From the NCBI GenBank assembly GCA_021201815.1, contig JAJQEC010000066.1, positions 46,258 to 110,257 on the forward strand: a stretch of 64,000 nucleotides of DNA, in the 5' to 3' direction. Below the pieces are notes generated by a model. The model was not told where the DNA came from. It did not search any database and was given only the letters and a program-made list of their open reading frames with translations. This document shows, piece after piece, positions 14,764-61,646 of the stretch. Each line of letters begins with the position of its first letter. Positions within the stretch are counted from its first letter, which is position 1. Source of the stretch: Candidatus Azobacteroides sp. (GTDB taxonomy: Bacteria > Bacteroidota > Bacteroidia > Bacteroidales > WRGA01). The translations under genes and the position numbers were made by a program.

Positions 14764-14930
14764 AATAAAGTTAGTTAATGGTTATTTCTTTTTCGTAAAC
14801 TAAGACCCCACTCCGGTAACATATCGCCACTCTGTAACTGATTTATAAAGACTGAATCGATAGCCTCTTCCCTGACAGGAAGAATAGTATCTCAAAAGAA
14901 ATAAAGGATACTTTTGCATCTGTCAAAATG

Positions 14931-17171: not shown

Positions 17172-17196
17172 TCTTCTTTTATTATCTTATCCGTAC

Positions 17197-19185
17197 TTAC
17201 TTCACAGGAATTATCCGCATGGCATATCCTCCTCCGGAAGCCATCGTTGCCTGTATCTTTTTATCGGCTCTTAGTGGTATGGTCTCTTTTTTGTAATCGC
17301 TGGCTGCTTTGTCCGCATTTACTCCGTCCCGAAAAATTTCGGCCACGTAGTTTCCTGCTCCCAGGAAGGATAAATCCAGTTCAACCGTACGGGCATTCCA
17401 GTCAGTCATAGCTCCCACATACCAGCAGTCTCCTTTCTGACGGGCAATGGCAATGTATTCTCCTATTTTCCCATCCAATGCAATGGTATTATCCCACACA
17501 GTCGGAATTCCGGCAATAAAAGCGGTACACTCTTTTTCCCGCTCGTAATTGGACGGACTGTCACACAACATATTGAGCGGGGATTCGAAAACAATATAAG
17601 TTGCTAACTGCCGGCATCGTGTCCCCTGACTCATCGGCTCGCCATATACGGGCCTGAAATTTTCTTTGGAGGCATTCCGCATCGCTCCTTGTGTATAATC
17701 TACCGGACCCGCTATCTGCCGTATAAAAGGAAAGGTTACATCATATTCTACCTGATCGGCGTCCGTCGGGAACTTCAATTGTTCCAGTCCATGTACGGCT
17801 TCGAAGTTCAGCACATTGGGATAAGTACGTTGTAATCCGGTTGGCTTGTATGATCCGTGGAAATCAATCAACAGCTTACATCGTGCAGCCGTTTCGGCTA
17901 CTTGTGTGTGGAAATCAACCATCGGCTGGTCGTCCCGCTCCATAAAGTCAATCTTAAACCCTTTTATTCCCAGTTCGGAATAATGCCTGCAGACTCCTTC
18001 TATATCCTTATTAAAACCGATATAACCTCCCCACAGAATAAGTCCTACGTTTCTGCTATCTGCATAGGCAACCAACTCTTTCAGGTCTATTTCCGGAACC
18101 ACATTGAACAAGTCATTTGTTCGGGGAACCGTCCAGCCATCATCCAGTATCACATATTCGATGTTATTTTCCGAGGCAAAATCGATATAGTACTTATAGG
18201 TTTGATTATTTACTCCTGTTTTGAAATCTACTCCACACAGATTGGAATTATTCCACCACTCCCAAGCTACTTTTCCCGGTTTAATCCAACCGATATCCGT
18301 TATCCGGGAGGGAGTGGCCAGCTTGTAAACCATATCGTTATCTGCCAGCTCTTTGTCATTTTCAGCTACAATGACAATGCGCCAGGGGAATGTCGTATTC
18401 CCTTTGCATCGGGCAATATAATCACGTCGTTCGGTAACCAGCATCTGCACCGGATTGTATTTATTTTGCTGTTCTTTATCCGGATACCCGGCGAATATCC
18501 CCTTCAGGGTAACCGATCCGTCCGGGTTACAAAGAAACATACCGGGGTAACTGAAAAGGTCCGATTCGGCAATGGCTATTTTTTTGCCATTTTCCCTGTT
18601 GATAACGACAGGCGAAAAGGCCAGTTTCTTTTTATCCCACCCTGTTACCTGTTGTTTGCTATATATATTTTCAAAACCATTACAGAATTGTTCTTCGTAT
18701 GTACTTCCCTCACTCCTTACATAAGGGATAAAGGCTTCACTGTCGTATCCGAGATTGAAACTCGCTTCTTCATCCAATACTCTGAAATCTTTTTTTCCTG
18801 TTGTTACAAAACGGTAGGCCATGCCTTCATTGTAGGCACGGAACCGGATTTCAAAATCGCCTTTGAATGCAAGGATTAACTCATTGTAATGGTCTGTAAT
18901 CCGGGAACGCTTATAAAACGGAGCCCGAATCTCCGTATTCACGGTGTTGGTTTTCTGCTTTTTTACGACAGGCCGGTGACCTAATACATTATCTTCCAGT
19001 ATCAGGGATATAGGAGACGGATAAAGTACGGTATCCTGCTTGTGTTTCAGAAGATACGTTATGTTATCACCTACCGAGATCTCTACTACCAGGTTCTTAT
19101 CCGGTGATGCAAGTTGAAATTTCTGTGCATGTACGAATAAAGGGAAAAATACAAATAGCAATAGGAATAGTTTTCTATTTTTCAT
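17197..19185 (-). CDS. Glycoside hydrolase family 97, retaining (alpha-galactosidase-type) subgroup
   Basis: A 662-residue protein with a signal peptide (1-20), a GH97 N-terminal beta-sandwich (about 22-280), a catalytic barrel (about 285-560, with WEWWNNSNLCGVDFKTGVN and VILDDGWTVP), and a C-terminal beta-sheet domain. Asp413 in GIKGFKIDFMERDDQ matches the aspartate that is the nucleophile in the retaining alpha-galactosidase of Bacteroides thetaiotaomicron. In the inverting alpha-glucosidase SusB that position is not a nucleophile. I therefore infer a retaining enzyme on alpha-galactosides or related sugars rather than SusB-like starch trimming. A GH97 beside a GH92 and GH3 suggests a mixed-linkage glycan. 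It is in the operon, 243 bp after the broken GH92. Confidence 0.88.
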   Translation of the reverse strand: MKNRKLFLLLFVFFPLFVHAQKFQLASPDKNLVVEISVGDNITYLLKHKQDTVLYPSPISLILEDNVLGHRPVVKKQKTNTVNTEIRAPFYKRSRITDHYNELILAFKGDFEIRFRAYNEGMAYRFVTTGKKDFRVLDEEASFNLGYDSEAFIPYVRSEGSTYEEQFCNGFENIYSKQQVTGWDKKKLAFSPVVINRENGKKIAIAESDLFSYPGMFLCNPDGSVTLKGIFAGYPDKEQQNKYNPVQMLVTERRDYIARCKGNTTFPWRIVIVAENDKELADNDMVYKLATPSRITDIGWIKPGKVAWEWWNNSNLCGVDFKTGVNNQTYKYYIDFASENNIEYVILDDGWTVPRTNDLFNVVPEIDLKELVAYADSRNVGLILWGGYIGFNKDIEGVCRHYSELGIKGFKIDFMERDDQPMVDFHTQVAETAARCKLLIDFHGSYKPTGLQRTYPNVLNFEAVHGLEQLKFPTDADQVEYDVTFPFIRQIAGPVDYTQGAMRNASKENFRPVYGEPMSQGTRCRQLATYIVFESPLNMLCDSPSNYEREKECTAFIAGIPTVWDNTIALDGKIGEYIAIARQKGDCWYVGAMTDWNARTVELDLSFLGAGNYVAEIFRDGVNADKAASDYKKETIPLRADKKIQATMASGGGYAMRIIPVK

Positions 19186-19406
19186 AGGTCATGTTTTTTT
19201 CTTACTGGTATTCCGGAATATTCCATGTTCTTTATTTCAGAAAACCTGTTATTAAATGTTATAATGTAATAATCAATTACTAGTGTATATATTCAAATGT
19301 ATTTATGCAAAATAATGAATGACTACTATCTACAAACTTCTCCATGTCTCTGTCAATGGCCCTGATCTCCAAATTGATGATTCCAATCATTATACAGCGA
19401 AATTAA

Positions 19407-19440
19407 TTGGCACATTGGCACATTATTTCATTGGCACATT
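19407..19440. repeat. TTGGCACATT short direct repeats at the end of the GH92 gene
   Basis: TTGGCACATT occurs at 19407, 19415 and 19431. The last copy forms the final codons (Met-Cys-Gln) and stop of the GH92 frame, so the original end of that gene may have been replaced by repeat sequence. The rest of 19186-19406 shows no gene; it is the GH92-GH97 spacer. Confidence 0.5.
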
Positions 19441-21614
19441 CCTCCATCTGTCATTTCAAATATCAATTCTCCTCCCTGCATGATATCTTTGTGAAGGATT
19501 CTGAAGTCGGTTATTTCCCTGCCATTCAGGGAAACAGATTTTACATATTTATTTTTTTCGCTCAGGTTATGAGCCCTTACAGTAAACGTTTTTTCTTCCG
19601 GAAGTGAGATCGTTACGTGGGGTACCTGCGGGGCACCTACTATATATTCCCCTCCGGCCGGGTTTACCGGGTAAAATCCCATGGCTGAGAATATGTATCA
19701 GGCCGACATCTGTCCGCAATCATCATTTCCACACAGGCCATCCGGTTGAGGGAGATAGAAACGGTCGAAAATCTCACGGATAATCTCCTGTGTTCTTTCT
19801 GGTTTATCCACATAATTATATAAGTAAGGAATATGGTGGCAGGGCTCATTTCCATGGGCATACTGACCGATTAATCCTGTCACGTCTAATACTTCTCCGG
19901 TTTCTTCAATCCCTGCTTCGGTCGTAAAGAGTGCGTCCAGTTTGGCGGCAAATGCTTCTTTTCCGCCTATTAATCCGATCAGGCCTTCTATGTCCTGCAT
20001 CACATGCCAGGTATATTGCCATGCATTTGCTTCGGTAAAATCTCCTCCGATGGTTCCGAAATGTGACAAACGAAGAGGACTGAATGGAGTACGCCAATTG
20101 CCTTTTGAGTCTTTTCCCCGCATAAAGCCGGTGCTAGCATCAAACACATTTTTATAGAATTCCGAACGTTTCATGAAATACGCATAGTCTTCTTTTTTCC
20201 CTAAGGCTTCCGCCATCAGTGCCACACAATAATCGTCGTATGCACTTTCGAGTGTACGGGATACGGATTCATTTTCAAGGATATCAAAAGGATAATAGCC
20301 GTATCTATTATAGGTTTCCCAATCGGAATAAGGATGACTTACAGTAGAGGAAGATTTAATCGCTTCATACGCTTCCTCCGGGTCAAAGCCCCGGAATCCT
20401 TTCAGGTAGGCATCGACAATAACCGGTATGGCATGATTCCCCAACATACAGAAGTTTTCTTTCCCCCATAAGGTCCAGATAGGTAAGTACCCCTGTGCTT
20501 TATGGTGGGCAAGCATTGTCAGGACAAAATCATCGACCATGTCAGGGTTGAGAATGGTATATAACGGATGTGCTGCCCTGTATGTGTCCCACAGGGAAAA
20601 GGTAGAATAGTAGTTTCCGGTGGGAGAAACGCCAATGCTATCGTTTGCCCCTCTGTATTTTCCGTCCGTACCGGCAATATTAGTGGGCTGAATATACAGA
20701 TGGTAAAGAGAAGTGTAAAAATTCGTTTTTTGTGCTTCTGTTCCTTCTACTTTAACCCGGGAAAGAAGTTGATTCCACCGGATACGGGCATTATTTTTCA
20801 CTGCAACGAAATCCCAGCCGGGATTTTCTTTGTTTAACGCATTGATAGCGTCCTCCGTACTAACGGTGGATAACCCTATTTTTATCTGCACGGCTTCTTT
20901 GTCTTTTGTTTCAAAGGCCAGGATAAGTCTTTTTGCGTTAGCGCCTTCTGCCGGTGGCAATTCTTCCGAAACGGTATAGGGTACATCGAATTTGATCACA
21001 TAAAAGAACTGACGTTGTACCCACCCTTTCACTTCATTATGACCGGTGATGGTATATGCATCGGGCATGTCTATCCGGGCAGCTAAAACCCGGTCGGGAG
21101 CATTGGACAATCCTCTTTGCAGGTCGAGCAGCACACGGGCGTCGTTATCTCCGGAAAAGGCATACCGGTGAAAGGCGGTTCGTTCTGTGGCTGTTATTTC
21201 CACTTCTACCACGACATCCGTTAAAGATACGGCATAGTAACCGGGTGTTGCCTGCTGTGATTCCCTATTATATGTGCTTTTATAGTGTCCGTCTATTTTA
21301 CCTGCGGAAAACGGGAACAGAAAGATATCCCCCAGATCGGGCACGCCTGTACCGTTCAAATGGGTTTGAGCAAATCCTTCGATAAAATCATCGTCATAAT
21401 TATACCCCGAGCAATACCTCCAGGAACCGATACCTGATTCGGGACCTGCCTGTATCAACCCGAAAGGGACACAGGCTCCCGGAAAGGTATGCCCGTTATC
21501 GGCGTTGCCGATAAACGGGTTTACATACCGGCAGTAATCCGGTTCTTCCGGTTGGTTACCAGAACAGGATAATAGGAAAATGAAAACAGGAAATATCAAT
21601 AATAGTTTCTCCAT
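19428..21614 (-). pseudogene. GH92 alpha-mannosidase interrupted by an in-frame TGA
   Basis: The preferred start at 21614 (not 21653) gives a lipoprotein signal ending FLLSC, then YVNPFIGNADNGHTFPGACVP and HLNGTGVPDLGD, typical of GH92 calcium-dependent exo-alpha-mannosidases. The frame stops at a TGA at 19695-19697, right after DDCGQMSA. Without a shift it continues YIFSAMGFYPVNPAGGEY for 90 codons to 19428. The conserved family motif is GQMSAWYIFSAMGFYP, so the TGA replaces TGG (tryptophan): one base change. The rest of the sequence is intact and full length (about 730 residues), so the mutation is recent or a sequencing error. TGA is a normal stop elsewhere in the window. The truncated product would lack the end of the catalytic barrel. 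Confidence 0.9.
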
Positions 21615-21634
21615 AATTTTTATGTTCAAGTTCA

Positions 21635-21682
21635 CCGTGGGTTGAGACGCCACGGCTAATGATGTGTCGCCACTCCGTGGCT
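21635..21682. repeat. Single REP-like head between GH92 and DUF3823 genes
   Basis: CCGTG...CACGG, CTAATGATGTG and the TCGCCACTCCGTGGC hairpin occur once, with no far inverted repeat. It lies inside the operon (77-bp gap) and may weaken or process the transcript between the SusCD genes and the enzyme genes (inference). Confidence 0.8.
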
Positions 21683-21690
21683 ATTTTTCT

Positions 21691-22398
21691 TTATATGGTT
21701 ATTCTTACAGGGGGTGCATAATTGTGCTTGGCTTCTGCCTGGGGAGCATCGATCAATGCGCCGATGATAAAATAATAGGGTTTGCCTTCTTCCAGTTCCG
21801 ATGAATAGGAAGTAACATCCAGCCTGATGGTGTATAGTTTATCTTCCGTGGGAACTTCATTGATAGTGGCTTCCACGAAATTCAGCTTTGAACCGTAGCC
21901 TACCGTAGCCTGCTGATGAAAGTATAGGCCTATGGTGGCTACATTATTCGGTACGGTAGTTTCCATATTGAAAGTGGCGGTGATGATGTTATCTTCTTTT
22001 TCTATCTTCGCATTTTTTATGCGGATATAGGGAATGACTTCAAAATTTATCTCGGTATCTCCCTGAACCTTTACTTCTATAGGATCCATCGGGACAAAGT
22101 TTCCCCGCTGCAACTGCATGGTGTAGGTACCGGAAAACATCAGGTTGTTTCTGTAAGTACCGTCGTTTTTAATGATCTGGTACTGGGTAACCGGATTCTG
22201 AAATCCATGTTCTACATATTCGATTTGTGCTCCGGAGACAATGTCCTGCCTAACGAGTTCTTTGGTTTCCATATCATATATTCCGCCGTATATGGTAGCA
22301 TCGGGTCCATCAAAATTATCCAGTTCACAGGAATGAAATAACAGGGTACATATACCTGCAATCAACATATATATCTTTCTACTTCTCATGATTTTCAT
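21691..22398 (-). CDS. DUF3823-type lipoprotein, accessory glycan-binding protein of the PUL
   Basis: A 235-residue lipoprotein: the signal ends TLLFHSC, followed by ELDNFDGPDATIYGGIYD, which marks the DUF3823 family found directly after SusD genes. Two beta-sandwich domains are expected, a carboxypeptidase-regulatory-like fold at about 40-130 and an Ig-like fold at 130-235. In characterised loci the protein in this position (SusE/F-like) is a surface glycan-binding protein; that role is inferred here from position. It begins 11 bp after the SusD stop. Confidence 0.8.
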   Translation of the reverse strand: MKIMRSRKIYMLIAGICTLLFHSCELDNFDGPDATIYGGIYDMETKELVRQDIVSGAQIEYVEHGFQNPVTQYQIIKNDGTYRNNLMFSGTYTMQLQRGNFVPMDPIEVKVQGDTEINFEVIPYIRIKNAKIEKEDNIITATFNMETTVPNNVATIGLYFHQQATVGYGSKLNFVEATINEVPTEDKLYTIRLDVTSYSSELEEGKPYYFIIGALIDAPQAEAKHNYAPPVRITI

Positions 22399-22409
22399 TT
22401 TTAAACAAG

Positions 22410-24356
22410 TTAATACTGGGGATTCTGAATTAATCCGGACGATCCTATTCCCGGAATGGAACGGTAATACTGATAAGGAAGGAAGTTAACAGCATAGGCA
22501 TACCTTATTCTGGTACGTACCATGATATACTGCGGTTTATCTCCCCTCAAATCCAGTAACGGCATTAATCCCAAGCGCTGTTTTCCACCGTCAAATGCCT
22601 CGTGAAATTCTCTTCTTCTTATTAAGTCCCAGAAATGTTTATTCTCGAATGCTAGTTCCACCCGGCGTTCCCTTAATACATTCTCCAACGTAAGCGGTAT
22701 TTCTGTCGTATGTCCGGCCCGGCGGCGGATGTCATTGATTGCTTTAGCAGCCTTAACCTGTGCATTGTCTGCCGTGTATCCGCTTTCCACGACTGCTTCG
22801 GCATAGTTGAGTAATACTTCTGCATACCGCATATCGATATAATCGGTAATGGACTGGTTCCATGTAGGAGTAACATTTACTTTCTCGCTTAAAAACTTAC
22901 GCATCAGAAAACCGGTACGTGTCATATTCCCGAAACCATAGTTGCTGAAACCCGAATATTTCAATGCATTATCGGCACCATAGGTATAATACGTGAGGCC
23001 ATTGTGTTCATACGAATCGTCAACATCCACGATGGCTTCTCCGGTAGGTTTCACAAGGCCGCCCTGTATAATAAGGGTCTCTCCTTTCCACACTCCGCCG
23101 GGATAATTTATCGAAGCAAAGAAACGGGCATCTTTATTCCGAAAGATTTCTTCCGGCGAATCGAATTTGCGGTAACTTCTCAGCCGGTGGTATCCGCCAT
23201 TATCTATTTGTCCGTTTTCCAACGTGATAATCGGAGCTGATTCCCCCGGTTTCGTGTAATCCTCATACATATCCACCAGGTCAAGCGTCGGATTAAACCG
23301 TCCGGGGTGAGGCCATGAGAAAGTGGTCTGGTTCGGGTTATACCAGATATCATAATTATGAGCCGTTCCCTGTCCGGGACGAACAAATCCTTTCAGGAAG
23401 ATTGTTTCTTCACTGGCTACATAAGGAGTTTCGAATAGAGCCTGGTAATTTTCGGCAGCTTCTTTCGGATCGGCAGGTTCCGGCCGGTATAAGGAAAATT
23501 TTCCCGATGCCATGATTTCATGGGAAGCTTTTATACATTCGGAGTAATACCTGTCGGCTTCCGATTCATCAATCCCTACAAGTCCCTGGCTAACGGCCGT
23601 TCCCGAAAGGGTAGCGTTTTTCCAGTATTTTGCCAGGGAAGCAGCATGTAAAGCCGCTCTTGATTTCAGGGCCAGCGCAGCCCATTTGGTTGCCCTTCTA
23701 TCATAATTGCCCCAGGCAGAAGCATCTTCCGGCAGATTGGCGATGGCTTTATCACATTCTTCCAGGATAAAATCCCAGGTTTCTTTCTCCGTACTTCTCG
23801 GTACTTTCAGGTCATCTACTTTACCGGGTATGTATTCCTGAGTTTCTTTAATCAACGGAACACCCCCATATCGTTTTGCCAGACCGAAGTATAAATAGGC
23901 CCTTATAAAGGAAGATTCTCCGATAAGCAGTTTTCTTTCTTCGTCCGACACATTCAGGTGTGGGATTTCGTCAATCAGCAGGTTGACATCCCGATTTAAT
24001 TCGTATCCTTCTGTCCACCATTGGAAATCATTGGCTGTTACTCCGATATGCCAGTCCGAATGAACGCCGTCCAATGTATAGGTGTCCATAATGATTCCGT
24101 TGGTATTATAGTTCGCTTTATTGGTTACGTTAAAGCCGAACTCATTGCTGTAGGGGCAATAATTAAAATCTTCTATCGGTAACTGATAATACAGATTCGC
24201 CATGTATTGTTTTACACCTTCCGGGTCTTTAAACAGGCGGTCTCCATCTATTTTATCTTTCGGATCCAGATCCAGCACATCCGTACATCCTGTAAAAGCC
24301 AACAATATGGTAAGGAAAAAAACGGATATATTTCTATTATTTTTATAATTTTTCAT
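22410..24356 (-). CDS. SusD/RagB-family outer-membrane lipoprotein
   Basis: A 648-residue protein. A lipoprotein signal ends in LAFTGC, followed by TDVLDLDPKDKIDGDRLFKD, the standard SusD start. TPR helices, with the C-terminal signature RRELAFE-like LRERRVELAFENKHFWDLIRR (split: LRERRVELAFEN, KHFWDLIRR), identify the family. It forms the lid over the SusC channel and binds oligosaccharide at the cell surface. It begins 13 bp after the SusC stop. Its length is in the upper part of the family range. Specificity cannot be read from sequence alone. Confidence 0.95.
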   Translation of the reverse strand: MKNYKNNRNISVFFLTILLAFTGCTDVLDLDPKDKIDGDRLFKDPEGVKQYMANLYYQLPIEDFNYCPYSNEFGFNVTNKANYNTNGIIMDTYTLDGVHSDWHIGVTANDFQWWTEGYELNRDVNLLIDEIPHLNVSDEERKLLIGESSFIRAYLYFGLAKRYGGVPLIKETQEYIPGKVDDLKVPRSTEKETWDFILEECDKAIANLPEDASAWGNYDRRATKWAALALKSRAALHAASLAKYWKNATLSGTAVSQGLVGIDESEADRYYSECIKASHEIMASGKFSLYRPEPADPKEAAENYQALFETPYVASEETIFLKGFVRPGQGTAHNYDIWYNPNQTTFSWPHPGRFNPTLDLVDMYEDYTKPGESAPIITLENGQIDNGGYHRLRSYRKFDSPEEIFRNKDARFFASINYPGGVWKGETLIIQGGLVKPTGEAIVDVDDSYEHNGLTYYTYGADNALKYSGFSNYGFGNMTRTGFLMRKFLSEKVNVTPTWNQSITDYIDMRYAEVLLNYAEAVVESGYTADNAQVKAAKAINDIRRRAGHTTEIPLTLENVLRERRVELAFENKHFWDLIRRREFHEAFDGGKQRLGLMPLLDLRGDKPQYIMVRTRIRYAYAVNFLPYQYYRSIPGIGSSGLIQNPQY

Positions 24357-24369
24357 ACGGATAATATTC

Positions 24370-27300
24370 TTAGAATGTGAGGGTTACTCCAAAATTAAAA
24401 CTCTTTGTCAACGGATAATTAAACCCGGCACTGTATGCTCCTTCGATTTTTTCAGGATCAAATGCCTTGACAAAAGAATCGGCAAAAGTGAAAAGGTTGT
24501 GTCCATTGGCATATATACGAAGGTTCTCGATGTAGAACTTTTTCACCAGATCGGCAGGAAGGGTATATCCTATTTCCACACTTTTCAGCCGGAGGTAAGA
24601 GGCATCTCTCCGAAAAGCAGCACTTTCTCTGTACATACCGGCTCCGTTATTGGATGTTCTGATAGAAGGCCAAGCGCCGGGAATCCATTCGCTGTTCAGG
24701 TCGTATGGGTCCGAAAGGTGCCACCTGTCATAAAAATAGGCCGGGGTGTTGGCGTTGAAGGCCAGCATGGATCCGTATACTTCCTGAAACCGCACGGTGT
24801 ATTTAGCCGATCCCTGCAACAACGCATTCAGGTCAAAGCCTTTGTATGCGGCATTGATGTTGATCCCATAATGCAGTTTCGGTTGTCCTCCCCAGAATAA
24901 AGGGACTTCGTCTTTTCCATCAATAACTCCATCGCCATTGATGTCTTTAAATTTAAAGCTACCGGGCAACTGGCGGTTATTTCCATAATTTCCTGTTTCA
25001 TGGAGGGCCGAATTATAAATATCTTCATAGTTCAGGAACTGGCCTTCTATTTCGTATCCCCATAACACATCGCTCCACCGGTTAGACTGCATGTACCGCC
25101 ATCTTTCGTAGCTGCTACCGAATTCGGATTCTTCGACATAGCGGTTCATGGTACGGGCAAAGTTGAAGTTTACACTGATGCCATAGGAAAAGTCTCCGAT
25201 TTTATTCTGGTGATTCACCATAAATTCGATTCCCCTTACCCTGTCGGTATTCAGGTTTTCCTCCGGGAGTTCTGCTCCGAAAGTATTGGGAAGAGAAACG
25301 TTCCGCCGGGAAAGCAAACCTTTTCTGTCGCGTTGGTATACATCAAATTCAATATTCAGGCGATTTTTGAAGAAACTGGCATCCAGTCCGATATCTGCGA
25401 TAGTTGCGGTAAACCAGGTAAGATCCCTGTTGATAATGGCAGGAGAAGAAATTCCGGAAGTATAGGACCCATCACTGAATTCGTATCCGGTATTGCCTCC
25501 TACCGTGTACCCGGCTATATACTGGAAAGGATTTCCTGCATTTTCTCCTACTTTCCCGTAGGAAGCACGGAATTTTAAATTGTCCAGCCATGTCAGATTG
25601 TCTTTCATAAAATTTTCTTCCGAGATTCTCCATCCACCCGATACGACAGGAAAGAAATCCCACCTGTTATCCGGATGGTAGCGGTATGAACCATCATAGC
25701 GGAAGGCAAATTCCAGCAGGTATTTGCCGGCAAAGTCATAATTAAATCTGCCGACATAAGAGCGGTTTCCGGTTTCTTCTTCGTATCCGTCCGTTTCCTG
25801 GTTATCCTTACCGGCCTGATTGATCTGGTCATTGGTATAAAAGTCATACCGGCGTTGCAGCCAGGAATACCGCATGTTTGTTTTTGTCTGCTCATATACC
25901 AGGGTTACGCCTACATTATGGACATCATTAAAGAGTGCTTTGTAGGAAGCCTGTGCCTGGAGTACCATTCTGTCATAATCGGTATTGCTGTTGGAGATAC
26001 GGGCCGGTGTATTTTGTTGTTCTGCCTTATATTCCCCGGTTGCTTCATCGTAGGTATACAGGTTATAGGGTTTTACCAGGTTTTTCGCCAGGGAATTATT
26101 GCTGTCATAGGCAGCCGTTCCCTTAAGCTGAAGTCCCGGGAGGAAAGGAGCATCGTATGTAAGGCCCCATGAGGACTGGAAAGATTTGTTCTTTGAATCG
26201 TTGTAGCCGACTACATCCCGGTTCATAAGGGCAAGCGGATTATCAAACGTGGTTTTTGCCAGATAGTCCGGATTTCCGTTTGCATAAGGGGATTCCGTAG
26301 GAAGGGACATCTGTGCGGCTTTAAATATCCAGTAAAACTCGCCCGGATTTTTCCTTGTATCGTATCTGCCCGATAAAAGGACATCTGCCGTCAGGTATTT
26401 ACTTAATTTGGCTGAAAGGTTGCTTCTTACGGTATAGCGTTCATAATTGATATCATTGCTTTTCACTAATCCTTCTTCGTTGTAGTATCCGAAGCTGACA
26501 AAGTAATCGACCGCTTCATTTCCTCCTGAAACGGAGATGTTATGTTGTGTCTGGAGAGCGTGCTTCTTCATGACCAGATCGTACCAATCGGTACTTTCAT
26601 ACCCAGGCGCTCCCTGTTTCCATTTTTCGAGTTCTTCTTTTGTAATGGACGGAGGCAGCCCCATATTTGCATTCGCATCGGCGAGCATTTCCTGTAGCTG
26701 GGCGGCATTGGCCATTTTGGGAACATTTGTCGGGCTCTGGAACCCGACGCTTCCGTTATATACAAACTTAGGTGCACCTTTGAACCCTTTTTTGGTTGTC
26801 ACGAGAATTACTCCGTTACCGGCATTAAATCCATAAATGGCAGCAGAGGCATCTTTCAGGATAGAGATGCTTTCTATGTCATTCGGGTCCAGCCGCTGGA
26901 ATTCGGAAGCGCCGTCCCGTGCAATTCCGTCTATTACATATAACGGAGCACCGAAACCGCGGACATTGATATTGGTATTGAATTCTCCGGGCTCACCGGC
27001 CTGTTGCCGTATCTGTAACCCGGCCACTTTTCCCTGTAGGCTCTGTGCCAGGCTGGAGTGGGTGGTAGTCATAATTTCATCAGACTTGATAGAGGAAATA
27101 GCACCGGTAAGGTTTCCGCGTTTCTGGGTTCCGTACCCTACCACGACTACTTCGTCCAGCAATTTGTTATCTTCTTCGAGGATAATTTCGAAAAAGGATT
27201 TTGCTCCGACCCGTACGTCTTTTGTCTGGTAGCCGATATAGGTTACTGTTAATACACTCTTATCGGATACAGATAAAGAGAAAGTACCGGACATATCCGT

Positions 27301-27795
27301 AAGGGCACCGTTGCCGGTTCCTTTTTCCACAATACTTACTCCGATCATAGGTTCCCCTTCTTCATCTTTTACGGTACCGGAGATGGTTTTTTTTTCGCCA
27401 AGTGTTTGTTGTCCCTGTGTAGTCATATCTTTCCTGAAAAGGACGACCTGCCGGCCTGTAATTTCATATCCGACATTCGTAGAGGCAAACAACATTCCCA
27501 GAATGGTATCCAGGTTTTTATTCTCTGCCTTGATGCTTACTTTTCTGTCTACGTCTATTAATGTACTGTTATAGAGTAAATGAACATCCGATTTTTCTTC
27601 CAGGTAATTCAGGACCTGTTCTACAGTCACATTTTCCATATTCAACGAGATAGTTGTTTCCTGCGAAGATCCGGGTTGCTGTCCGAAGAGGTTGCAGACA
27701 AATCCTACCAGAAAGAGAGGGATAATTCTTATCCCGACAGGAAGTTTCAGGAACAGGCAATAGCACGTACTGCTGATTTTTTTGTTAGATTTCAT
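24370..27795 (-). CDS. SusC-family TonB-dependent receptor with STN signalling domain
   Basis: A 1,141-residue outer-membrane channel for oligosaccharide uptake. After the signal region (1-40) comes an STN domain (about 47-115: ISLNMENVTVEQVLNYLEEK). Then follow a carboxypeptidase-regulatory-like domain (about 138-210, ISGTVKDEEGEPMIGVSIVE), the TonB-box-like LLDEVVVVGYGTQKRG, the plug (NVRGFGAPLYVIDGIA) and the 22-strand barrel ending in the aromatic FNFGVTLTF. An STN domain is what couples such receptors to FecR/ECF-sigma signalling, in agreement with the FecR gene directly upstream. It heads the minus-strand operon SusC-SusD-DUF3823-GH92-GH97-GH3-esterases-GH. Confidence 0.95.
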   Translation of the reverse strand: MKSNKKISSTCYCLFLKLPVGIRIIPLFLVGFVCNLFGQQPGSSQETTISLNMENVTVEQVLNYLEEKSDVHLLYNSTLIDVDRKVSIKAENKNLDTILGMLFASTNVGYEITGRQVVLFRKDMTTQGQQTLGEKKTISGTVKDEEGEPMIGVSIVEKGTGNGALTDMSGTFSLSVSDKSVLTVTYIGYQTKDVRVGAKSFFEIILEEDNKLLDEVVVVGYGTQKRGNLTGAISSIKSDEIMTTTHSSLAQSLQGKVAGLQIRQQAGEPGEFNTNINVRGFGAPLYVIDGIARDGASEFQRLDPNDIESISILKDASAAIYGFNAGNGVILVTTKKGFKGAPKFVYNGSVGFQSPTNVPKMANAAQLQEMLADANANMGLPPSITKEELEKWKQGAPGYESTDWYDLVMKKHALQTQHNISVSGGNEAVDYFVSFGYYNEEGLVKSNDINYERYTVRSNLSAKLSKYLTADVLLSGRYDTRKNPGEFYWIFKAAQMSLPTESPYANGNPDYLAKTTFDNPLALMNRDVVGYNDSKNKSFQSSWGLTYDAPFLPGLQLKGTAAYDSNNSLAKNLVKPYNLYTYDEATGEYKAEQQNTPARISNSNTDYDRMVLQAQASYKALFNDVHNVGVTLVYEQTKTNMRYSWLQRRYDFYTNDQINQAGKDNQETDGYEEETGNRSYVGRFNYDFAGKYLLEFAFRYDGSYRYHPDNRWDFFPVVSGGWRISEENFMKDNLTWLDNLKFRASYGKVGENAGNPFQYIAGYTVGGNTGYEFSDGSYTSGISSPAIINRDLTWFTATIADIGLDASFFKNRLNIEFDVYQRDRKGLLSRRNVSLPNTFGAELPEENLNTDRVRGIEFMVNHQNKIGDFSYGISVNFNFARTMNRYVEESEFGSSYERWRYMQSNRWSDVLWGYEIEGQFLNYEDIYNSALHETGNYGNNRQLPGSFKFKDINGDGVIDGKDEVPLFWGGQPKLHYGININAAYKGFDLNALLQGSAKYTVRFQEVYGSMLAFNANTPAYFYDRWHLSDPYDLNSEWIPGAWPSIRTSNNGAGMYRESAAFRRDASYLRLKSVEIGYTLPADLVKKFYIENLRIYANGHNLFTFADSFVKAFDPEKIEGAYSAGFNYPLTKSFNFGVTLTF

Positions 27796-28089
27796 ATGTT
27801 ATTTTTATTTTTACATTAAGGTCATATGCAACTGGCATAGTTTAAAATAGCCTCCTATTATGATGGTGTAGATCATGTTTTTCCCCGTTTCGTGAGGAAG
27901 ACCGTTGGTATAGACTTCGTTTCATAGGTTACATTTTCCGGGTAATTGAGTTAGCATCACTGAATGCATTCATCCGGATTAACAAGAAGAACGGAAATAG
28001 AATAAGGGGTTACTCCATTGTCCTTATTATTGAATTTCAGCCTGATTTTTTGTGTATATGTTTCATTTTATTTTACTATTATATATGTG
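27796..28089. other. Leader region between FecR and SusC genes
   Basis: A 294-bp stretch with no gene on either strand. It should contain the sigma-dependent promoter of the SusC operon, but I find no TAnnTTTG box, as expected if a specialised ECF sigma factor is used (inference). Confidence 0.4.
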
Positions 28090-29115
28090 TTATTTTCTGG
28101 TATTGATAATTACCTTCTTTTTTGAGAAACTATAATCCGATCCCTGCTCAGGTTCAATGATGGTGTATTGTACCGGTGCTGTCCTTTTTATCAGCCGGAG
28201 TATTTCGTCCAGGCTTTCTGTGGTAAAAGTAGCGGAGTAAGCATATCCGGGTAATTCTTCTCCTTCCAGTTGTATGTCTACATTGAAATGACGTGAAAGC
28301 CTTCGGGCCACTTCTTGCATACCGGTACGGCGAAAGGCAAGGCGACCGTCTTTCCAACCGGTTTTTTCAATCATATGCACCATCGATACGGCCATGTTAC
28401 CTCCCTGTTTATGATATGCCAGATGTTCTCCTGGCAACAGGTTCTTCTCTATGTTGTTCTTTTTATCCAGCACCTGCACGTTTCCTTCTACCAATGTGAC
28501 ATCGATGCTTTTTTCATCGGTATACCCATTGATATTGAATTCCGTTCCGAATGCACTTACGACTAATTCATTATTAACCAGGACATCAAACCGGTTGTCC
28601 CGGTCGGATTGTACTTTAAAATAGGCTTCTCCCGACAGGTGTACTGCCCGGCTACCGCTTGTAAACCGGTCCGGATAAGACAGGCTTGAGCCGGAATTCA
28701 GCCAGACTTCTGTTCCGTCGGCCAGATTTATTTTTGAAATTGTTCCTGCCGCTGCAGTCACAGTGAATTGCTGAACCGGAGCATCTTTTAATTCCCGGAG
28801 TTCCAGAGCCAATATGCCGGAAAGAATCAGCACCGGCAATAAAAGGATGGCTGCGGCTGAACGGGAAAACATAAGAATGCGGGTTTTTATCCGGTCTTTT
28901 TTTATCCTTTTTAAAAGCTGTTGCCAGTTCTTTTCGGTATCGATGAAAGCTTGCTGCCTGAGTGCGGAAGAGGTTTTCCATAGAAATGCTATTCTTTCTG
29001 CTTCCTGACGAAGCTTTTCGGAATTCCTTATTTCTTTTTCGAATATTTCCTTTTCTTCCGGCGACAACCCGCCTTCTAAATACTTTATTATGTCTTCTGT
29101 TGTTATTTCCACCAT
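28090..29115 (-). CDS. FecR-family anti-sigma factor without an adjacent sigma gene
   Basis: A 341-residue inner-membrane anti-sigma regulator. A cytosolic N-terminal domain (1-80, IIKYLEGGLSPEEKEIFEKE) is followed by one membrane helix (about 84-107, AAAILLLPVLILSGILAL), the periplasmic FecR domain (GTEVWLNSGSSLSYPDRF ... GTEFNINGYTD) and a C-terminal STN-like DUF4974 domain (RLSRHFNVDIQLEGEELPGY). In the common layout, sigma-FecR-SusC, a sigma gene would precede it, but upstream there is only a REP-like element and then an enzyme gene. It is a clear paralogue of the FecR at 35182. It may share the sigma factor at 34587 (inference). Confidence 0.93.
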   Translation of the reverse strand: MVEITTEDIIKYLEGGLSPEEKEIFEKEIRNSEKLRQEAERIAFLWKTSSALRQQAFIDTEKNWQQLLKRIKKDRIKTRILMFSRSAAAILLLPVLILSGILALELRELKDAPVQQFTVTAAAGTISKINLADGTEVWLNSGSSLSYPDRFTSGSRAVHLSGEAYFKVQSDRDNRFDVLVNNELVVSAFGTEFNINGYTDEKSIDVTLVEGNVQVLDKKNNIEKNLLPGEHLAYHKQGGNMAVSMVHMIEKTGWKDGRLAFRRTGMQEVARRLSRHFNVDIQLEGEELPGYAYSATFTTESLDEILRLIKRTAPVQYTIIEPEQGSDYSFSKKKVIINTRK

Positions 29116-55882: not shown

Positions 55883-58800
55883 TTATAACATCACCTTTAT
55901 TGTTTTTGTCTGACGGGCTGTGTTAACTTTCAAGATGTATATACCAGAAGGAACAGAAGGCAACGCATATTGCTTCTTTTCACCTGCAAATTGGTATTGA
56001 CCTGCAAATCCTGTTATTTTTTTACCGGATAAATCATATAATTCAATGCCTACTTCTCCGGCTTCAGGGAGTATGACAAAAAATGATTTGCCGGCTTGGC
56101 GAACACTCAGTTCCTCTTTCATAATTATTTCAGAAGCTGAAACATAAGGCTCTCCTGCAAAATAAGGAATGACATATTCATTTTCGTCTGCATCAATCTC
56201 ATAATAGAATGCAACACAGAAGTTATAAAGAGGATAAGGCTGACCATAGATCACATTTCCGTTTTCATCCTTAGGTTCTCCACTGGGCGGAATGAGAGAA
56301 GCCTTGTCTCCATGAGGAAAGACAAAATTACCATCCGCATCCTTTTTATCCGGATCTTCATAGGTAAAGAATGCCTGATAGGGATCACTGTCTCTCAGGT
56401 TTCCATGTCCTGCCGTAGAGGATGAGGCATACGAAACGGCTATTTTTCCACCTGATAAATCCGTATTGGTGGTAATAGCAATGATACTGTCTTTTACGAT
56501 TTCTATATCTTTAATAGTTTGTATCCGATTATTAGCATACAATGTAAAACCATAATCCGTTACTTTCTTTAAGGTATGTTCATCAAACACCATCGGAGGT
56601 TCCGGAACATGGAAGGTGATATATACCTTCTGGGGATCATTTTCGTCTCTTTGCAGTCTTTTAGGCTGAAGAGGTTTAAAGTCTTCTCCTTCTATTTTGG
56701 TTTTATAATACACTTTCCCCAGTAACTCTCCGTACCAGCGGTAACCGTTTCCATCCAGGTGACCTCCTACGTCTGTCATTTGATAGACAGGGCCCGCACA
56801 AATCACATCCCGATATTCGTTAGAAGCTTCGAGCTGAGCCATTCCGATGGGCAGCCGGATTCCGGCAGTATACTGGGCTCCGACCTGATAGGTGATGAAA
56901 AGAGGTCTTTCATCCTGCCAGTATCTATCCTGAATATCATTCTGCATATCGTTCTTCAACTGAATCATCAGTTTTTTATATTCGTCCTTATCGGTAGTAG
57001 GTTTGGAACCCAAGGTAAGGCCATTGCCATGCCCCTGATAATTCCATTCTCCCTGTAACCAGAAAATAGCCGGACATACAACGGAACTGTTGGTTGCCGT
57101 AGCAATCTTCTTAGTATATTTTAAGGCATCCAGTACATTGCTATAATAATTATCTACCTGGGAATGTTTTGATAAAGCTTCGATAGGTTGCCCGCTTACT
57201 CCTACGGAAGTAGCGATGAAACGATTTTCAATTTCAGGAGATACTTCTTGTTGTTTTAGACGAATATGATTCACGGCTCCATGCAGCGGAGATTCCGAAA
57301 GATCCGGATATCCTATTGCAATAGTGGCTTTTAACGGGTTTAGCTGATCTAAATTCCGGTTTCCTTCGGCATTCCAGATTTGTTCGCCAAGCATGTAATT
57401 CCCCGGGATGTTTTCTGTAGAAACAGGATATGCTTCATGCCCGGTGGATAAACTCTGCCCGTTCATAATAAAATGCTGGTAGTTGTGAGATTCAACTCCT
57501 ACCGGAGGATTCGTAGGAATCTCAAGAGCACCGACCGCACAACGTTCATTTTCAAATTTCCGCACATTCCCTAATTGATCGGTTGAAATGCCGTAATTTT
57601 TCAGATAGGTGGCATCTCCATGCGTTAAAGCTGAAGAATTGTATTCTAAAGGAATGCTATTTTGAGTAGCGATAAAATCTTCATAAGGAGTAGCTAATTC
57701 CGAATATTCTCCTAATCCGTATCCTATTCTGTTATCATTTTCCTTAACGGGAGTATAAATTTCACCGTTATTCCATATATCCCCTACATAAGATTTGTAA
57801 ATAAATAAATCTTTTCCATTTTGAGCCTGGTACCTGAAAGAGAGATCGCTACTTTTCCTCGGAGTCATGGATGCCACATTCGACTCAATAATACAGTTAT
57901 AAAAACTTTTCTTCATTTCTTCCGTTTGTGCACTGAAGAAAAGTCCTGCTCCGTTATTCTCTGTAGCAACTACTTTATTACCGACAATGGTGCAATTTAT
58001 CATATCCACAGTACTTCCACTTGTTGCACTATTAAACCGGAACGCTCCTCCTTGTCCGGAAGTAGGAGCAGCATTTCCGGATACAGTTGTATTAATCAGT
58101 AATAAAAGGATATTATTTCCTTGTGTATCATTTAATATACTTACGGCACCTCCACCGGTACCATTTGAAGAGTTATCAGCGATCAGGCAGGCTTCAATCC
58201 GGATATTTGAAACCAGATTTGTTACCGAACCATCTTCCACCAGATATATTGCTCCTCCTTCATCGTTCACAAGACAATTGCGGATGATGCTGTTTTGCAA
58301 TAATAAATCTGTACAATTAAGCACATAAAGACCTCCTCCGGCTGACCCGGAATAAGACAACTGGTTATCTTCTATTCTTGTATTCAGAATATTCACAGCA
58401 CCTCCGTTTATATACAGGCCACCTCCGAATTGTACCTTATTGTTCTGAAATACACACGAAGAAAAAGTTACTGCCGGACAATTCTGTACAAACACAGTAC
58501 CTTTACTGGCTCTTCTATTACCGGAGTTATCATGAAAGTTACAATTTTCAAATTTTATATTTGAATTGTTTACCGACAAAGCGACTCCTTCACTAATAGA
58601 CGAACTTCCATTTGTGAAGGAAAGGTTTTTAATTATACTTCCCTGATTGGAATCGATATTTAATATCCGTGTTCTCCCACCACCGGAGAAACCGGAAACC
58701 GTACCGTCACCACCATCTATCGTAAGGCTGATCCCCGGGAAATTAATCCCGTCCGAACCGGAAATTTCACCTGAAATATCAATTATTCCGGTTACATGGA

Positions 58801-58996
58801 GTACATCTCCGTTCCCACAAAGACTAAATGCTTTTGTTAATGTTGCTACAGGAGCATTGAACGTAAGGCCTGAGTTCGTATCATTTCCGGATGAAGAAAG
58901 ATAAATATCCTTTGCATATCCCGGAAAAGAGAAAGCAAAAAATAAAATCAATCCTAAAGGAAAGCCAAGTAATTTAGTTTTTCTCATAATATTCAT
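55883..58996 (-). CDS. Secreted beta-helix plus SGNH esterase fusion with T9SS tail
   Basis: A 1,037-residue protein; ATG at 58996 or 58987. Signal peptide to about residue 28. Residues about 30-480 are a right-handed beta-helix of the choice-of-anchor-Q/pectin-lyase-like kind (IYLSSSGNDTNSGLTFNAPV; repeated GGGLYINGGAVNI and GGAIYLVED rungs). Residues about 500-760 form an SGNH esterase with block I FIMNGQSLSTGHEA, IFWLQGEWNYQGHG and GGHLDGNGYRWYGELLG. A beta-sandwich and a T9SS sorting tail (GIELYDLSGKKITGFAGQYQ) follow. The esterase half is a paralogue of the PUL esterase at 13195. It could bind and deacetylate a surface or host glycan (inference). A regulator gene lies 106 bp upstream in the same direction. 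Confidence 0.85.
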   Translation of the reverse strand: MNIMRKTKLLGFPLGLILFFAFSFPGYAKDIYLSSSGNDTNSGLTFNAPVATLTKAFSLCGNGDVLHVTGIIDISGEISGSDGINFPGISLTIDGGDGTVSGFSGGGRTRILNIDSNQGSIIKNLSFTNGSSSISEGVALSVNNSNIKFENCNFHDNSGNRRASKGTVFVQNCPAVTFSSCVFQNNKVQFGGGLYINGGAVNILNTRIEDNQLSYSGSAGGGLYVLNCTDLLLQNSIIRNCLVNDEGGAIYLVEDGSVTNLVSNIRIEACLIADNSSNGTGGGAVSILNDTQGNNILLLLINTTVSGNAAPTSGQGGAFRFNSATSGSTVDMINCTIVGNKVVATENNGAGLFFSAQTEEMKKSFYNCIIESNVASMTPRKSSDLSFRYQAQNGKDLFIYKSYVGDIWNNGEIYTPVKENDNRIGYGLGEYSELATPYEDFIATQNSIPLEYNSSALTHGDATYLKNYGISTDQLGNVRKFENERCAVGALEIPTNPPVGVESHNYQHFIMNGQSLSTGHEAYPVSTENIPGNYMLGEQIWNAEGNRNLDQLNPLKATIAIGYPDLSESPLHGAVNHIRLKQQEVSPEIENRFIATSVGVSGQPIEALSKHSQVDNYYSNVLDALKYTKKIATATNSSVVCPAIFWLQGEWNYQGHGNGLTLGSKPTTDKDEYKKLMIQLKNDMQNDIQDRYWQDERPLFITYQVGAQYTAGIRLPIGMAQLEASNEYRDVICAGPVYQMTDVGGHLDGNGYRWYGELLGKVYYKTKIEGEDFKPLQPKRLQRDENDPQKVYITFHVPEPPMVFDEHTLKKVTDYGFTLYANNRIQTIKDIEIVKDSIIAITTNTDLSGGKIAVSYASSSTAGHGNLRDSDPYQAFFTYEDPDKKDADGNFVFPHGDKASLIPPSGEPKDENGNVIYGQPYPLYNFCVAFYYEIDADENEYVIPYFAGEPYVSASEIIMKEELSVRQAGKSFFVILPEAGEVGIELYDLSGKKITGFAGQYQFAGEKKQYALPSVPSGIYILKVNTARQTKTIKVML

Positions 58997-59023
58997 TTAA
59001 AAAAGTTGGATAATCAAATGTTA

Positions 59024-59031
59024 CAAATGTA
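59024..59031 (-). promoter_or_regulatory. -7 promoter box of the beta-helix/esterase gene
   Basis: TACATTTG on the minus strand matches TAnnTTTG and lies 28 bases before the ATG at 58996. No matching TTTG -33 box exists, which suggests activator dependence; the upstream SARP-like regulator is a candidate (inference). Confidence 0.45.
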
Positions 59032-59102
59032 CATCACACAGATTACCACCAGGATTAGTATCAAGGTTAATTTCAAAAAAAAATCAATTAATATTTTATT
59101 AA

Positions 59103-61646
59103 TTACGAGATTAATTGCTCGAAGGTCGTTTTAAATTCTGTTCCGAACGCTGTTTTATATTCTCTGGCAAACGCCTCATATACTTTTTTAGCCAATCCGT
59201 TTTTTCCGGTTTTCAGCAATTCGACACACTTCATTGTCAATGCATCTTCATTCAGAGAATCATATACAAAAATGGCATCCGCAATCTTTATTTTCAGGGA
59301 GGAAGATACATCAGTAGTCGAATTAACAAAGGCAATCAGTACATCTATTAATCTGTTAGAAAAATCCGCTTTAAAATTATCTGCCCAATCTACCGGAACA
59401 TCTGCCAATAATTCTCCATTAGAAACAATAGTAACCAGCTCTTCAATCACCTGCCGGTTAAACGAATCTTCCATCAAATGCTCCATAAGGGATACGGCTT
59501 TGAAATAATCACAATATACCTCCGTACCCAATTCTATAAACCAATTGGAATTACGGTTATTGATTTCAACATCTCCCACAGTCTCAAAAATAAGCCGTAA
59601 TTTACTGATAGATACTCCCCGATTGTTTTTTGCTTTGTCTTTATCCTTATCGAACCAAAGAATTTCATTTAGTTTTTGCGATGAAATACCTTTCTCATCT
59701 TTATATGTATAAAATAGGATTAAAAGAAACAGATGTTTTAATACAGGGGTAAACTTAGAACTGATATCCGTTCCATTCTTATCCAGAACACGAAAATTAC
59801 CAAATAAAAGGACAGATGACTTCCGGCTTTCATTTTTCTTTTCCGGACTGACAGGTAAATTTTCTTCTTTTGCAGCTATTTCTTTTTTGGATTTGCCCCC
59901 GGATTTTCTTCTTACTTTACGAGTAAGATAAAACAATATAATAAATGCTGAAAAAAAGATAATAAAAATGTTGAATACTTTTTTATCCGGAAGGTGTGTC
60001 TGTTGAAATAAGTCACTCTTTTGAAGAGGTGGGAAATTTAATGAATAAATAGAAATAATGGACGAGGCAGCCTCTTCATCGTTATAAATTGTTACTGCAA
60101 TAAGCCTGGTCGAATCGGCATTCACATATAAATCTGCATAGGAGAATCCGTCGTTAAAAAGATAAGGGATACTATCGGCAAGAAGATCGTAATGAGGCTT
60201 ATCCAATGAAAAACGACAGAGTTGTAACTGAGTGTTAAATTTATGCTGAGGGAAACATAACGCATAAAAACACCGATTAGAGGTATCTACGACTAAGGAA
60301 TTTGCAACTACAAAATCAGTATCCACAAAGGGCAACTCCCATTTTTTCCTTGTCGTTAAAGCCGGAAGATCCACTTCATACAGGTCGTAATAATTCCGGG
60401 GCGATAATTCCTGTTTTCCGGATTCATTTCCATAACCTCCGAAAATAAGGATCGTATTTTCATCCATTGTTCCAAGTCCGCTTAAATAACGGGGAGAAAT
60501 ACCACTTCCCTGCAAAGGCAATTTATTCCACTGCCCGGAGATGAAATTATACACATTCACATCATTTTTGTATATATGAAAACCATATCCGCCAAAAGTA
60601 TACAGTTTGTTTTCCGGAATTGAAAAATAACGGGTATGATGCCAGTAGTGAGAGTCTTCAAATATATTGATATGGTTATTCCATGATTTTGTCTGAGGAT
60701 CATATTGTGCCGCTTTTTTTGTAAAATCATACGTAAAATATGTTTCTTCTTTTTTATTATATATAAGCTGATTGGAAAGATTACCGGTCATGCTGCCTCC
60801 TTTTATTGTGTCGACCCTCAATCCATTCCCGACTTTATAGAAATAGAAGCAACTACTATCAGCAACCACCACGACATCATCATTCGAATTATACGTTACC
60901 TTCGGATATAACTTTGCCGGAAAAGATATTTCTTTTTTCCAATAGGCGTAATTATCTACCAGCCAGACGGGATTCTCTACGCTTGCAAACTGGTGTTTTA
61001 CCGAATCATACACCCCTTTGTCCGCATATTGCGCCAAAGGCCAGGAATACCGCACTTTTCCTTTGTTGTCTTTTAATAGTATGTTTTTTACCGCCATGGC
61101 CGGCACATCACTTACCTGATAAGATAATAGATTATTTTTACCAAAAACAAGATGGATATTTTTGAAACCGCTAAACAGCATGTTCTCAGAATTAAATTCC
61201 TTATCATTTAATTTTATTTCTAACCGGTTCCTTTTTTGATTTATAGCAACACGAACCTTTGTCCACTGGCCATAGTCAACCTGCAACTCATCAAAAGTAC
61301 CTTGATATATTACCTTTCCTCTTTCGTATATAAAAGAAAGATAAGGAGAAAGATCCGGTTCGTCTGTCTTTCTGCCTAATACCAAGTCCAGATGTTGATT
61401 GTCTTCTCCGATAATACGGAATACATAACCGAAAATATGATGTACTCTTTCGAATTTAATATCAAATTCCAAAAGGAAGCCCTCCGGAAATGAAAAGGGA
61501 TTGACGGGGGTAAGATTTAATTCTGTGCGATTTTCCTTTTCTACTTCGTAGGAATGAAATTGTAAGCCATACTCTTTTTCTACCTGAGCATAAACAAGAG
61601 GGATGGAAAAAATAAAATATATTATTAACAAGTATTTCCGAAGCAT
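59103..61646 (-). CDS. Membrane-spanning kelch-repeat/SARP-like transcriptional regulator
   Basis: An 847-residue protein. Signal peptide 1-20; a LamG/concanavalin-like domain at about 25-210 (FPEGFLLEFDIKFERVHHIF); kelch-type beta-propeller repeats at about 240-540 (ENKLYTFGGYGFHIYKNDVN, ENTILIFGGYGNESG); one membrane helix at 557-575 (FNIFIIFFSAFIILFYL) with a positive cytosolic side (RKVRRKSGGKSKK). Next a winged-helix DNA-binding domain at about 611-705 (LLFGNFRVLDKNGTDISSKF ... LNEILWFDKDKDKAKNNRGV ... SKLRLIFE), with the layout of SARP/OmpR-like regulators, and a BTAD-like helical end (712-847). It can sense outside and bind DNA inside without a kinase. It is placed directly upstream of the secreted beta-helix/esterase gene. 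Confidence 0.8.
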   Translation of the reverse strand: MLRKYLLIIYFIFSIPLVYAQVEKEYGLQFHSYEVEKENRTELNLTPVNPFSFPEGFLLEFDIKFERVHHIFGYVFRIIGEDNQHLDLVLGRKTDEPDLSPYLSFIYERGKVIYQGTFDELQVDYGQWTKVRVAINQKRNRLEIKLNDKEFNSENMLFSGFKNIHLVFGKNNLLSYQVSDVPAMAVKNILLKDNKGKVRYSWPLAQYADKGVYDSVKHQFASVENPVWLVDNYAYWKKEISFPAKLYPKVTYNSNDDVVVVADSSCFYFYKVGNGLRVDTIKGGSMTGNLSNQLIYNKKEETYFTYDFTKKAAQYDPQTKSWNNHINIFEDSHYWHHTRYFSIPENKLYTFGGYGFHIYKNDVNVYNFISGQWNKLPLQGSGISPRYLSGLGTMDENTILIFGGYGNESGKQELSPRNYYDLYEVDLPALTTRKKWELPFVDTDFVVANSLVVDTSNRCFYALCFPQHKFNTQLQLCRFSLDKPHYDLLADSIPYLFNDGFSYADLYVNADSTRLIAVTIYNDEEAASSIISIYSLNFPPLQKSDLFQQTHLPDKKVFNIFIIFFSAFIILFYLTRKVRRKSGGKSKKEIAAKEENLPVSPEKKNESRKSSVLLFGNFRVLDKNGTDISSKFTPVLKHLFLLILFYTYKDEKGISSQKLNEILWFDKDKDKAKNNRGVSISKLRLIFETVGDVEINNRNSNWFIELGTEVYCDYFKAVSLMEHLMEDSFNRQVIEELVTIVSNGELLADVPVDWADNFKADFSNRLIDVLIAFVNSTTDVSSSLKIKIADAIFVYDSLNEDALTMKCVELLKTGKNGLAKKVYEAFAREYKTAFGTEFKTTFEQLIS

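Follow-up and report, generated by a model that had tools for sequence, protein, structure and literature searches.

Gene pair and domain layout

The window (the whole 64-kb stretch of DNA that was analysed) contains two neighbouring reverse-strand genes. ORFs at 59103–61646 (−) and 55883–58996 (−) encode proteins of 847 and 1,037 aa and are separated by 106 bp. This two-gene layout had been proposed in a preliminary description, and both ORFs are present. The upstream gene is predicted to encode a membrane-bound regulator with the following features.

59103..61646 (−), membrane-bound kelch-SARP regulator gene (ORF; paralogues in the genome, homologues in the order and phylum)
61587..61646 (−), predicted signal peptide, about aa 1–20 (hydrophobic N-terminus after MLRK; helix 2–19 in the model)
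60975..61574 (−), LamG-like beta-sandwich, about aa 25–224 (predicted strands; weak Laminin_G matches in relatives)
60027..60938 (−), kelch beta-propeller, about aa 237–540, predicted periplasmic sensor (Pfam kelch motifs; Foldseek)
59922..59975 (−), single predicted membrane helix, about aa 558–575 (hydropathy, charge step, predicted helix)
59517..59825 (−), winged helix-turn-helix half of the predicted SARP domain, about aa 608–710 (AF2 model, Foldseek, Trans_reg_C in relatives)
59106..59516 (−), helical BTAD-like half of the predicted SARP domain, about aa 711–847 (AF2 model, Foldseek, BTAD in relatives)

The full-length model has a mean pLDDT of 80 and places the sandwich at aa 28–224, the propeller at about 237–540 and one helix at 558–575. 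Kelch_6, Kelch_2, Kelch_1 and Kelch_4 were above cut-off in Pfam, and the propeller resembles the kelch propellers of LZTR1 and KLHDC2 (Foldseek, E about 1e-10). Laminin_G gave weak matches only, among 11 family members, and a viral Foldseek search returned generic kelch and LamG matches only. The kelch part of some relatives matches TIGR03547 (2e-6, 2 of 11) and PF24996 (5 of 11); the curated families nearest to it are the NanM/YjhT kelch mutarotases, by weak, partial matches.

Hydropathy indicates a positive charge step C-terminal of the regulator's predicted membrane helix. The C-terminal domain follows a strong hydrophobic segment in 45 family members, usually with a positive step after the segment, so the propeller is placed in the periplasm and the C-terminal domain in the cytoplasm. 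Pfam and the models agree with the domain order first described (kelch and LamG-like domains, one membrane helix, winged helix and BTAD). They do not agree with a sensor outside the cell: it is predicted to be periplasmic and anchored in the inner membrane.

The downstream gene is predicted to encode a secreted protein, which had been described as a beta-helix/esterase and T9SS cargo from its sequence.

55883..58996 (−), secreted beta-helix/SASA-like esterase/T9SS cargo, 1,037 aa, predicted target (ORF, profile matches)
57503..58915 (−), beta-helix part, aa 28–498 (homology to a beta-helix in genome G368)
56687..57499 (−), SGNH/SASA-like esterase part, about aa 500–770 (PF03629 at 0.0074, below cut-off; motifs)
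55889..56080 (−), T9SS type A sorting tail, aa 973–1036 (TIGR04183 35 bits, cut-off 23)

That description is upheld by the tail, the beta-helix and the weak SASA-like match. The TIGR04183 tail (Por_Secre_tail, 1e-8) and a hydrophobic N-terminus, taken as a signal peptide, identify the protein as T9SS type A cargo, and GQS, WLQGE and H-GY esterase motifs were read by eye.

Predicted SARP fold and relation to known regulators

The C-terminal domain modelled alone has an AF2 pLDDT of 92. In a Foldseek search of the PDB, 6 of 742 matches had E ≤0.001, and all were AfsR or EmbR, over about 250 columns. The predicted structure has the arrangement that defines a SARP, an OmpR-like winged helix with a BTAD helical domain immediately after it, and this predicted fold supports the assignment of the domain as a SARP. 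The preliminary description had called the domain SARP-like, a view to be dropped if it did not fold as a winged helix; since the predicted fold is that of a SARP, with matches to AfsR and EmbR, the view stands. In Pfam the window protein falls below the curated BTAD (PF03704) and Trans_reg_C (PF00486) cut-offs, which are similarity thresholds outside the structural definition of a SARP. BTAD is the family most often matched among relatives (9 of 38, best 0.0011, weak), and Trans_reg_C reaches 2.6e-4 in relatives, also weak. Searches of SARP-domain sequences against the PDB gave no match from 12 sequences, and weak PhoB-type and TPR matches from 38. Sequence searches alone would have missed the SARP identity.

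The cytoplasmic linker (aa 576–607) is long and disordered in the model, which suits cleavage as well as a tether. Regulated proteolysis on sensing could thus free the SARP domain as a soluble SARP in place of anchored DNA binding. This is unlikely: the neighbourhood lists contain no recurring protease gene, and the proposed targets adjoin the regulator's own gene, which agrees with an anchored protein, though both are weak points.

The genome encodes two further full-length copies (34% and 33% identical), three altogether. Profile searches found the family in 27 of 393 genomes of the order and the SARP domain in 14 of 394 genomes across the phylum, and the distribution is patchy. Named relatives include Dysgonamonadaceae, Prevotellaceae, another Bacteroidia bacterium and Sphingobacterium records; all titled homologues are Bacteroidota, and the remaining ones are from the same phylum. 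A minority of the family carries the same SARP domain and membrane helix on another N-terminus, at full length in loci L073–L076, L078 and L079 and in short form in L072 and L077. A 24,366-aa open frame on contig C66 was rejected as an artefact of masked N.

The winged helix and BTAD fold is common to the regulator and the SARPs (AfsR, DnrI, ActII-ORF4, PimR; EmbR). In contrast to SARPs, the regulator has a periplasmic kelch sensor and a membrane helix ahead of its predicted SARP domain, which is C-terminal. Unlike known SARPs, the present family belongs to Bacteroidota, has AT-rich boxes and is linked to glycan use, not antibiotics. SARPs were called exclusive to actinobacteria in a 2024 review (PMC10972967). 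Actinobacterial origin, a criterion for SARPs in a review, does not apply to this family; the homologues found are Bacteroidota.

Glycan-utilisation regulators of Bacteroides include SusR-like proteins, HTCS and ECF sigma/anti-sigma pairs (PMC3878776, PMC6874557). SusR-like regulators are also membrane proteins with a periplasmic sensor and a cytoplasmic DNA-binding domain, encoded beside susC/susD (PMC3878776). The DNA-binding domain of SusR (BT3705) is described as resembling no other factor; its HTH lies near the C-terminus, and its predicted sites are separated by 67 or 77 bp (PMC3878776). The regulator is set apart from SusR by this description, having a predicted SARP domain and sites 10–12 bp apart. 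Like HTCS, it combines a large, putative periplasmic carbohydrate sensor with regulation in one polypeptide at glycan loci, including alpha-mannan loci. It differs in having no histidine kinase, receiver or AraC domain, none of which was found by Pfam among 11 family members, and profile searches of the regulator found no FecR-type anti-sigma domain and no sigma-70 regions. The HTCS and ECF classes are excluded by this domain content. ToxR/CadC-type one-component membrane activators likewise join a winged helix to a periplasmic sensor through one membrane helix. Here the order is reversed, with the sensor N-terminal, a BTAD domain is added, the sensor is a kelch propeller and the operator is of SARP type.

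Tandem boxes at the cargo promoter and across the family

The cargo promoter lies in the intergenic gap and has the following features.

59024..59031 (−), −7 box TACATTTG of the cargo promoter, without a −33 element (sequence; perfect match)
59041..59046 (−), predicted SARP box 1, GTAATC (box pattern)
59053..59058 (−), predicted SARP box 2, CTAATC (12 bp from box 1)
59065..59070 (−), predicted SARP box 3, TTAACC (12 bp from box 2)
59086..59114 (−), upstream array of TTAATC (59109–59114), TTAATA (59097–59102) and TTAATT (59086–59091)

The promoter reads TTAACC-CTAATC-GTAATC at 59070–59041, then the −7 box at 59031–59024, at a distance of 15 nt. A lone −7 box had been reported here and was found at these positions. 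It is explained by SARP-type direct repeats that occupy the −33 position at a family-wide spacing. The upstream array is a pattern match (G000:C147:105344-105371), lies in part over the regulator's stop codon and stands about two helical turns above box 3, as read from the sequence.

In regulator-to-next-gene gaps of the family, a Bacteroidetes −7 box is preceded by TTAATC/TTAACC boxes that recur at intervals of about 11 bp. The arrangement consists of tandem TTAAYC boxes every 10–12 bp, the last 15 nt from the −7 box, box start to box start. For counting, a box was defined throughout as xTAAYx that starts with T or ends with C, and boxes had to follow one another in steps of 10–12. At least three boxes were found in 16 of 42 regulator-adjacent promoters versus 1 of 137 background promoters; steps of 7–9, 13–15, 16–18 and 19–21 gave 0 of 42. 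With wider limits the counts were 23 of 57 versus 3 of 327 controls (P about 2e-18, in statistics that ignore kinship). Because the motif had been read off some of the loci, the test was repeated on other loci, where 15 of 36 promoters had at least three boxes (P about 3e-14, again ignoring kinship). More than half of the regulator-adjacent promoters are without three clean boxes.

Spacing to the −7 box is also restricted. Perfect −7 boxes lie 15–16 nt from the last box start in 7 cases and at 26–27 nt, one helical turn more, in 4 rows that represent 3 promoters, one of them entered twice; none lies elsewhere between 8 and 39 nt from the last box. The complete arrangement of boxes and −7 box was found in 18 of 325 promoters of regulator loci versus 0 of 278 in the background. 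Scored over whole sequences, boxes plus −7 are enriched in the order's regulator loci, and not clearly so in the phylum set. Two strict patterns each gave 16 matches in the regulator's own genome, and reversed controls gave 6 and 13 (16 versus 13 for the strict three-box pattern), so the genome-wide patterns are weakly informative. Locus L153 (G696) has two SARP-family genes in tandem, one of them preceded by up to five boxes at 11-bp spacing, a layout suggestive of a cascade or of autoregulation.

The operator rule tested comes from Streptomyces, where SARPs have as their sites direct repeats with a period of 11 or 22 bp, and 8 bp separate the last repeat from the −10 element (PMC10936776). 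SARP operators are typically heptamers with 4-bp spacers (PMC5930380). The Bacteroidota boxes have a spacing of 10–12 bp, and the last box starts 15 nt before the −7 start; read as heptamers, they end 8 bp before the −7 box, an agreement not built into the box search. In both systems, tandem repeats at 11–12 bp replace the −35/−33 element at an equal distance to the −10/−7 box. The AfsR dimer, whose protomers are bound side by side, extends over a poor −35 element and makes contact with sigma region 4 (PMC10936776). The absence of a −33 element at the cargo promoter would fit this mode of action.

The sequence by itself is silent on the direction of regulation. A role as repressor or co-sensor in place of activator is highly unlikely, as boxes that stand where the −33 element should be, in constant helical phase with the −7 box, have the layout of a SARP activator. 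It is also highly unlikely that an ECF sigma factor or a general glycan-utilisation activator reads the TTAAYC boxes while the kelch-SARP protein has another role. Boxes do occur before some GH92 and SusC genes that belong to the same loci but are not next to the regulator. However, three boxes were found in only 1 of 12 control GH92 promoters that lie far from a regulator in the same genomes, and in 0 of 7 background SusC promoters. Moreover, these boxes also lie by FGE/NapC genes in the subgroup that has another sensor, so the boxes track the SARP domain and not gene function.

Glycan loci and proposed role

Neighbouring genes were classed with profiles seeded from Pfam-checked genes. Kelch copies adjoin SusC/SusD, GH92, GH125, GH76 and GH99-like genes, that is, genes for alpha-mannoside-type enzymes. 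A GH92 gene is found no more than 20 kb from at least 19 of the 30 kelch copies, with 2.1 expected (P about 7e-16, in statistics that ignore kinship); the GH92 map of the 27 family genomes used 150 of 202 matches, and the expected number was raised to match. A SusC or alpha-mannoside-type gene lies within 5 kb in 31 of 44 family loci and 28 of 120 background centres. Counts for GH99 and GH125 are descriptive, because some seeds were taken from family loci; the GH92 test uses the Pfam family. A GH99-like domain with a weak Pfam GH99 match recurs by kelch-SARP genes in L058, L062, L006, L055 and L064, alone or fused to a beta-helix or T9SS tail.

The preliminary description had asked whether T9SS cargo is always next to such regulators. 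A T9SS tail lies within 5 kb in 12 of 44 family loci versus 13 of 120 background centres, an excess weaker than that of GH92. The genome (4.2 Mb) encodes a large cargo set: its T9SS sorting tails of type A number at least 150, so having a cargo gene next door says little; T9SS cargo was rejected as the main conserved partner. The conserved partners are alpha-mannosidase/SusCD utilisation loci, and NapC/FGE-type genes for the other-sensor subgroup.

None of the 8 members of that subgroup is near GH92, among the matches listed, and in five of its loci an FGE-sulfatase/NapC-type gene lies close by instead. In L073, L074, L075, L076 and L078, the SARP-membrane protein with a different N-terminus adjoins a NapC-cytochrome/FGE-sulfatase fusion gene, with oxidoreductase-like genes next in most. 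The tandem boxes described above recur at the next gene in L074 and L075, and in L076 at the FGE gene.

One paralogue in the genome lies beside GH92 genes on contig C14; the other is on C117 with two SusC/SusD pairs and several GH92 genes on the same contig. Among the matches listed, the GH92 gene nearest to the window copy is 38 kb off and has an in-frame stop, and its locus has its own FecR-type anti-sigma gene. This separate glycan-utilisation locus, at about 14900–29100 (−) of the window, encodes GH3, GH97, GH92, SusD, SusC and the FecR-type protein. In-frame stops (TGA and TAG) occur in 2 of 9 GH92 genes of the genome among the matches listed, at about 19446–21653 (−) of the window and in L043 (G000:C14:21896-23338), and may reflect decay, assembly error or something else.

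With so many T9SS cargo genes in the genome, the regulator could be a chance neighbour of an independent cargo gene and have its real target elsewhere. This is very unlikely. The cargo promoter is the sole perfect three-box plus −7 site in the 64-kb window. In G368 (L055), a kelch-SARP gene is followed directly, after 136 bp, by a gene whose product begins with a homologous beta-helix (31% identical, 1e-51) and goes on to a GH99-like domain and a T9SS tail; the window arrangement is thus repeated there with a different catalytic domain. In locus L157, which was held out, a SARP-family gene is likewise followed by a T9SS cargo promoter with three boxes.

Domain order, SARP fold, operator architecture and neighbourhood are established by sequence and prediction. 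They make it very probable that the 847-aa protein is a periplasmic-sensing, inner-membrane, one-component SARP activator of glycan-utilisation genes, here of the downstream cargo gene. The one-component trans-membrane regulator of the preliminary description is supported by the predicted SARP fold, membrane helix and kelch sensor, and its idea of glycan sensing fits the SusC/SusD, GH92, GH125, GH76 and GH99-like neighbours. We infer that the regulator binds the boxes, dimerises on binding a ligand, which would be a glycan fragment, and activates transcription. The kelch propeller and LamG-like domain would sense the ligand in the periplasm, most likely an oligosaccharide from alpha-mannosidic or other host or plant glycans. 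The signal would cross one membrane helix to the cytoplasmic SARP domain. Tandem TTAAYC-type repeats, spaced by one helical turn, would carry SARP domains side by side, and the last repeat lies 15 nt from the −7 box. As these repeats would replace the missing −33 element, the activator would take over promoter recognition, as AfsR does. The direct target in the window would be the gene for the T9SS-secreted beta-helix/SASA-like esterase; in relatives, the targets would be SusC/SusD, GH92, GH125 and GH99-like genes.

The preliminary description had held that a membrane-bound kelch regulator of this type may be little described in Bacteroidota, and no description of the kelch-SARP family was found in the openly accessible literature, which is not proof of novelty. 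With a DNA-binding module and a repeat-based promoter code known from Actinobacteria that make antibiotics, the family would enlarge the small set of regulator classes described for glycan use in Bacteroidota. Membrane-bound SARPs are somewhat likely to form a further general class of such regulators, with interchangeable periplasmic sensors and one conserved promoter code (TTAAYC repeats at one helical turn, 15 nt before the −7 box). If so, two phyla that differ in sigma factors and promoter elements, Actinobacteria and Bacteroidota, would share SARP promoter takeover. The family would also extend SARPs to another phylum with the same spacing rule, and it allows one to ask how an activator that evolved with one sigma factor and its −10 element can operate at a Bacteroidota −7/−33 promoter. 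Because the operator is readable, target genes and regulons could be predicted by sequence and checked in a cultivable relative. Overall, the regulator probably detects sugars at the outer face of the inner membrane and, from the inner face, turns on genes for glycan degradation in its vicinity.
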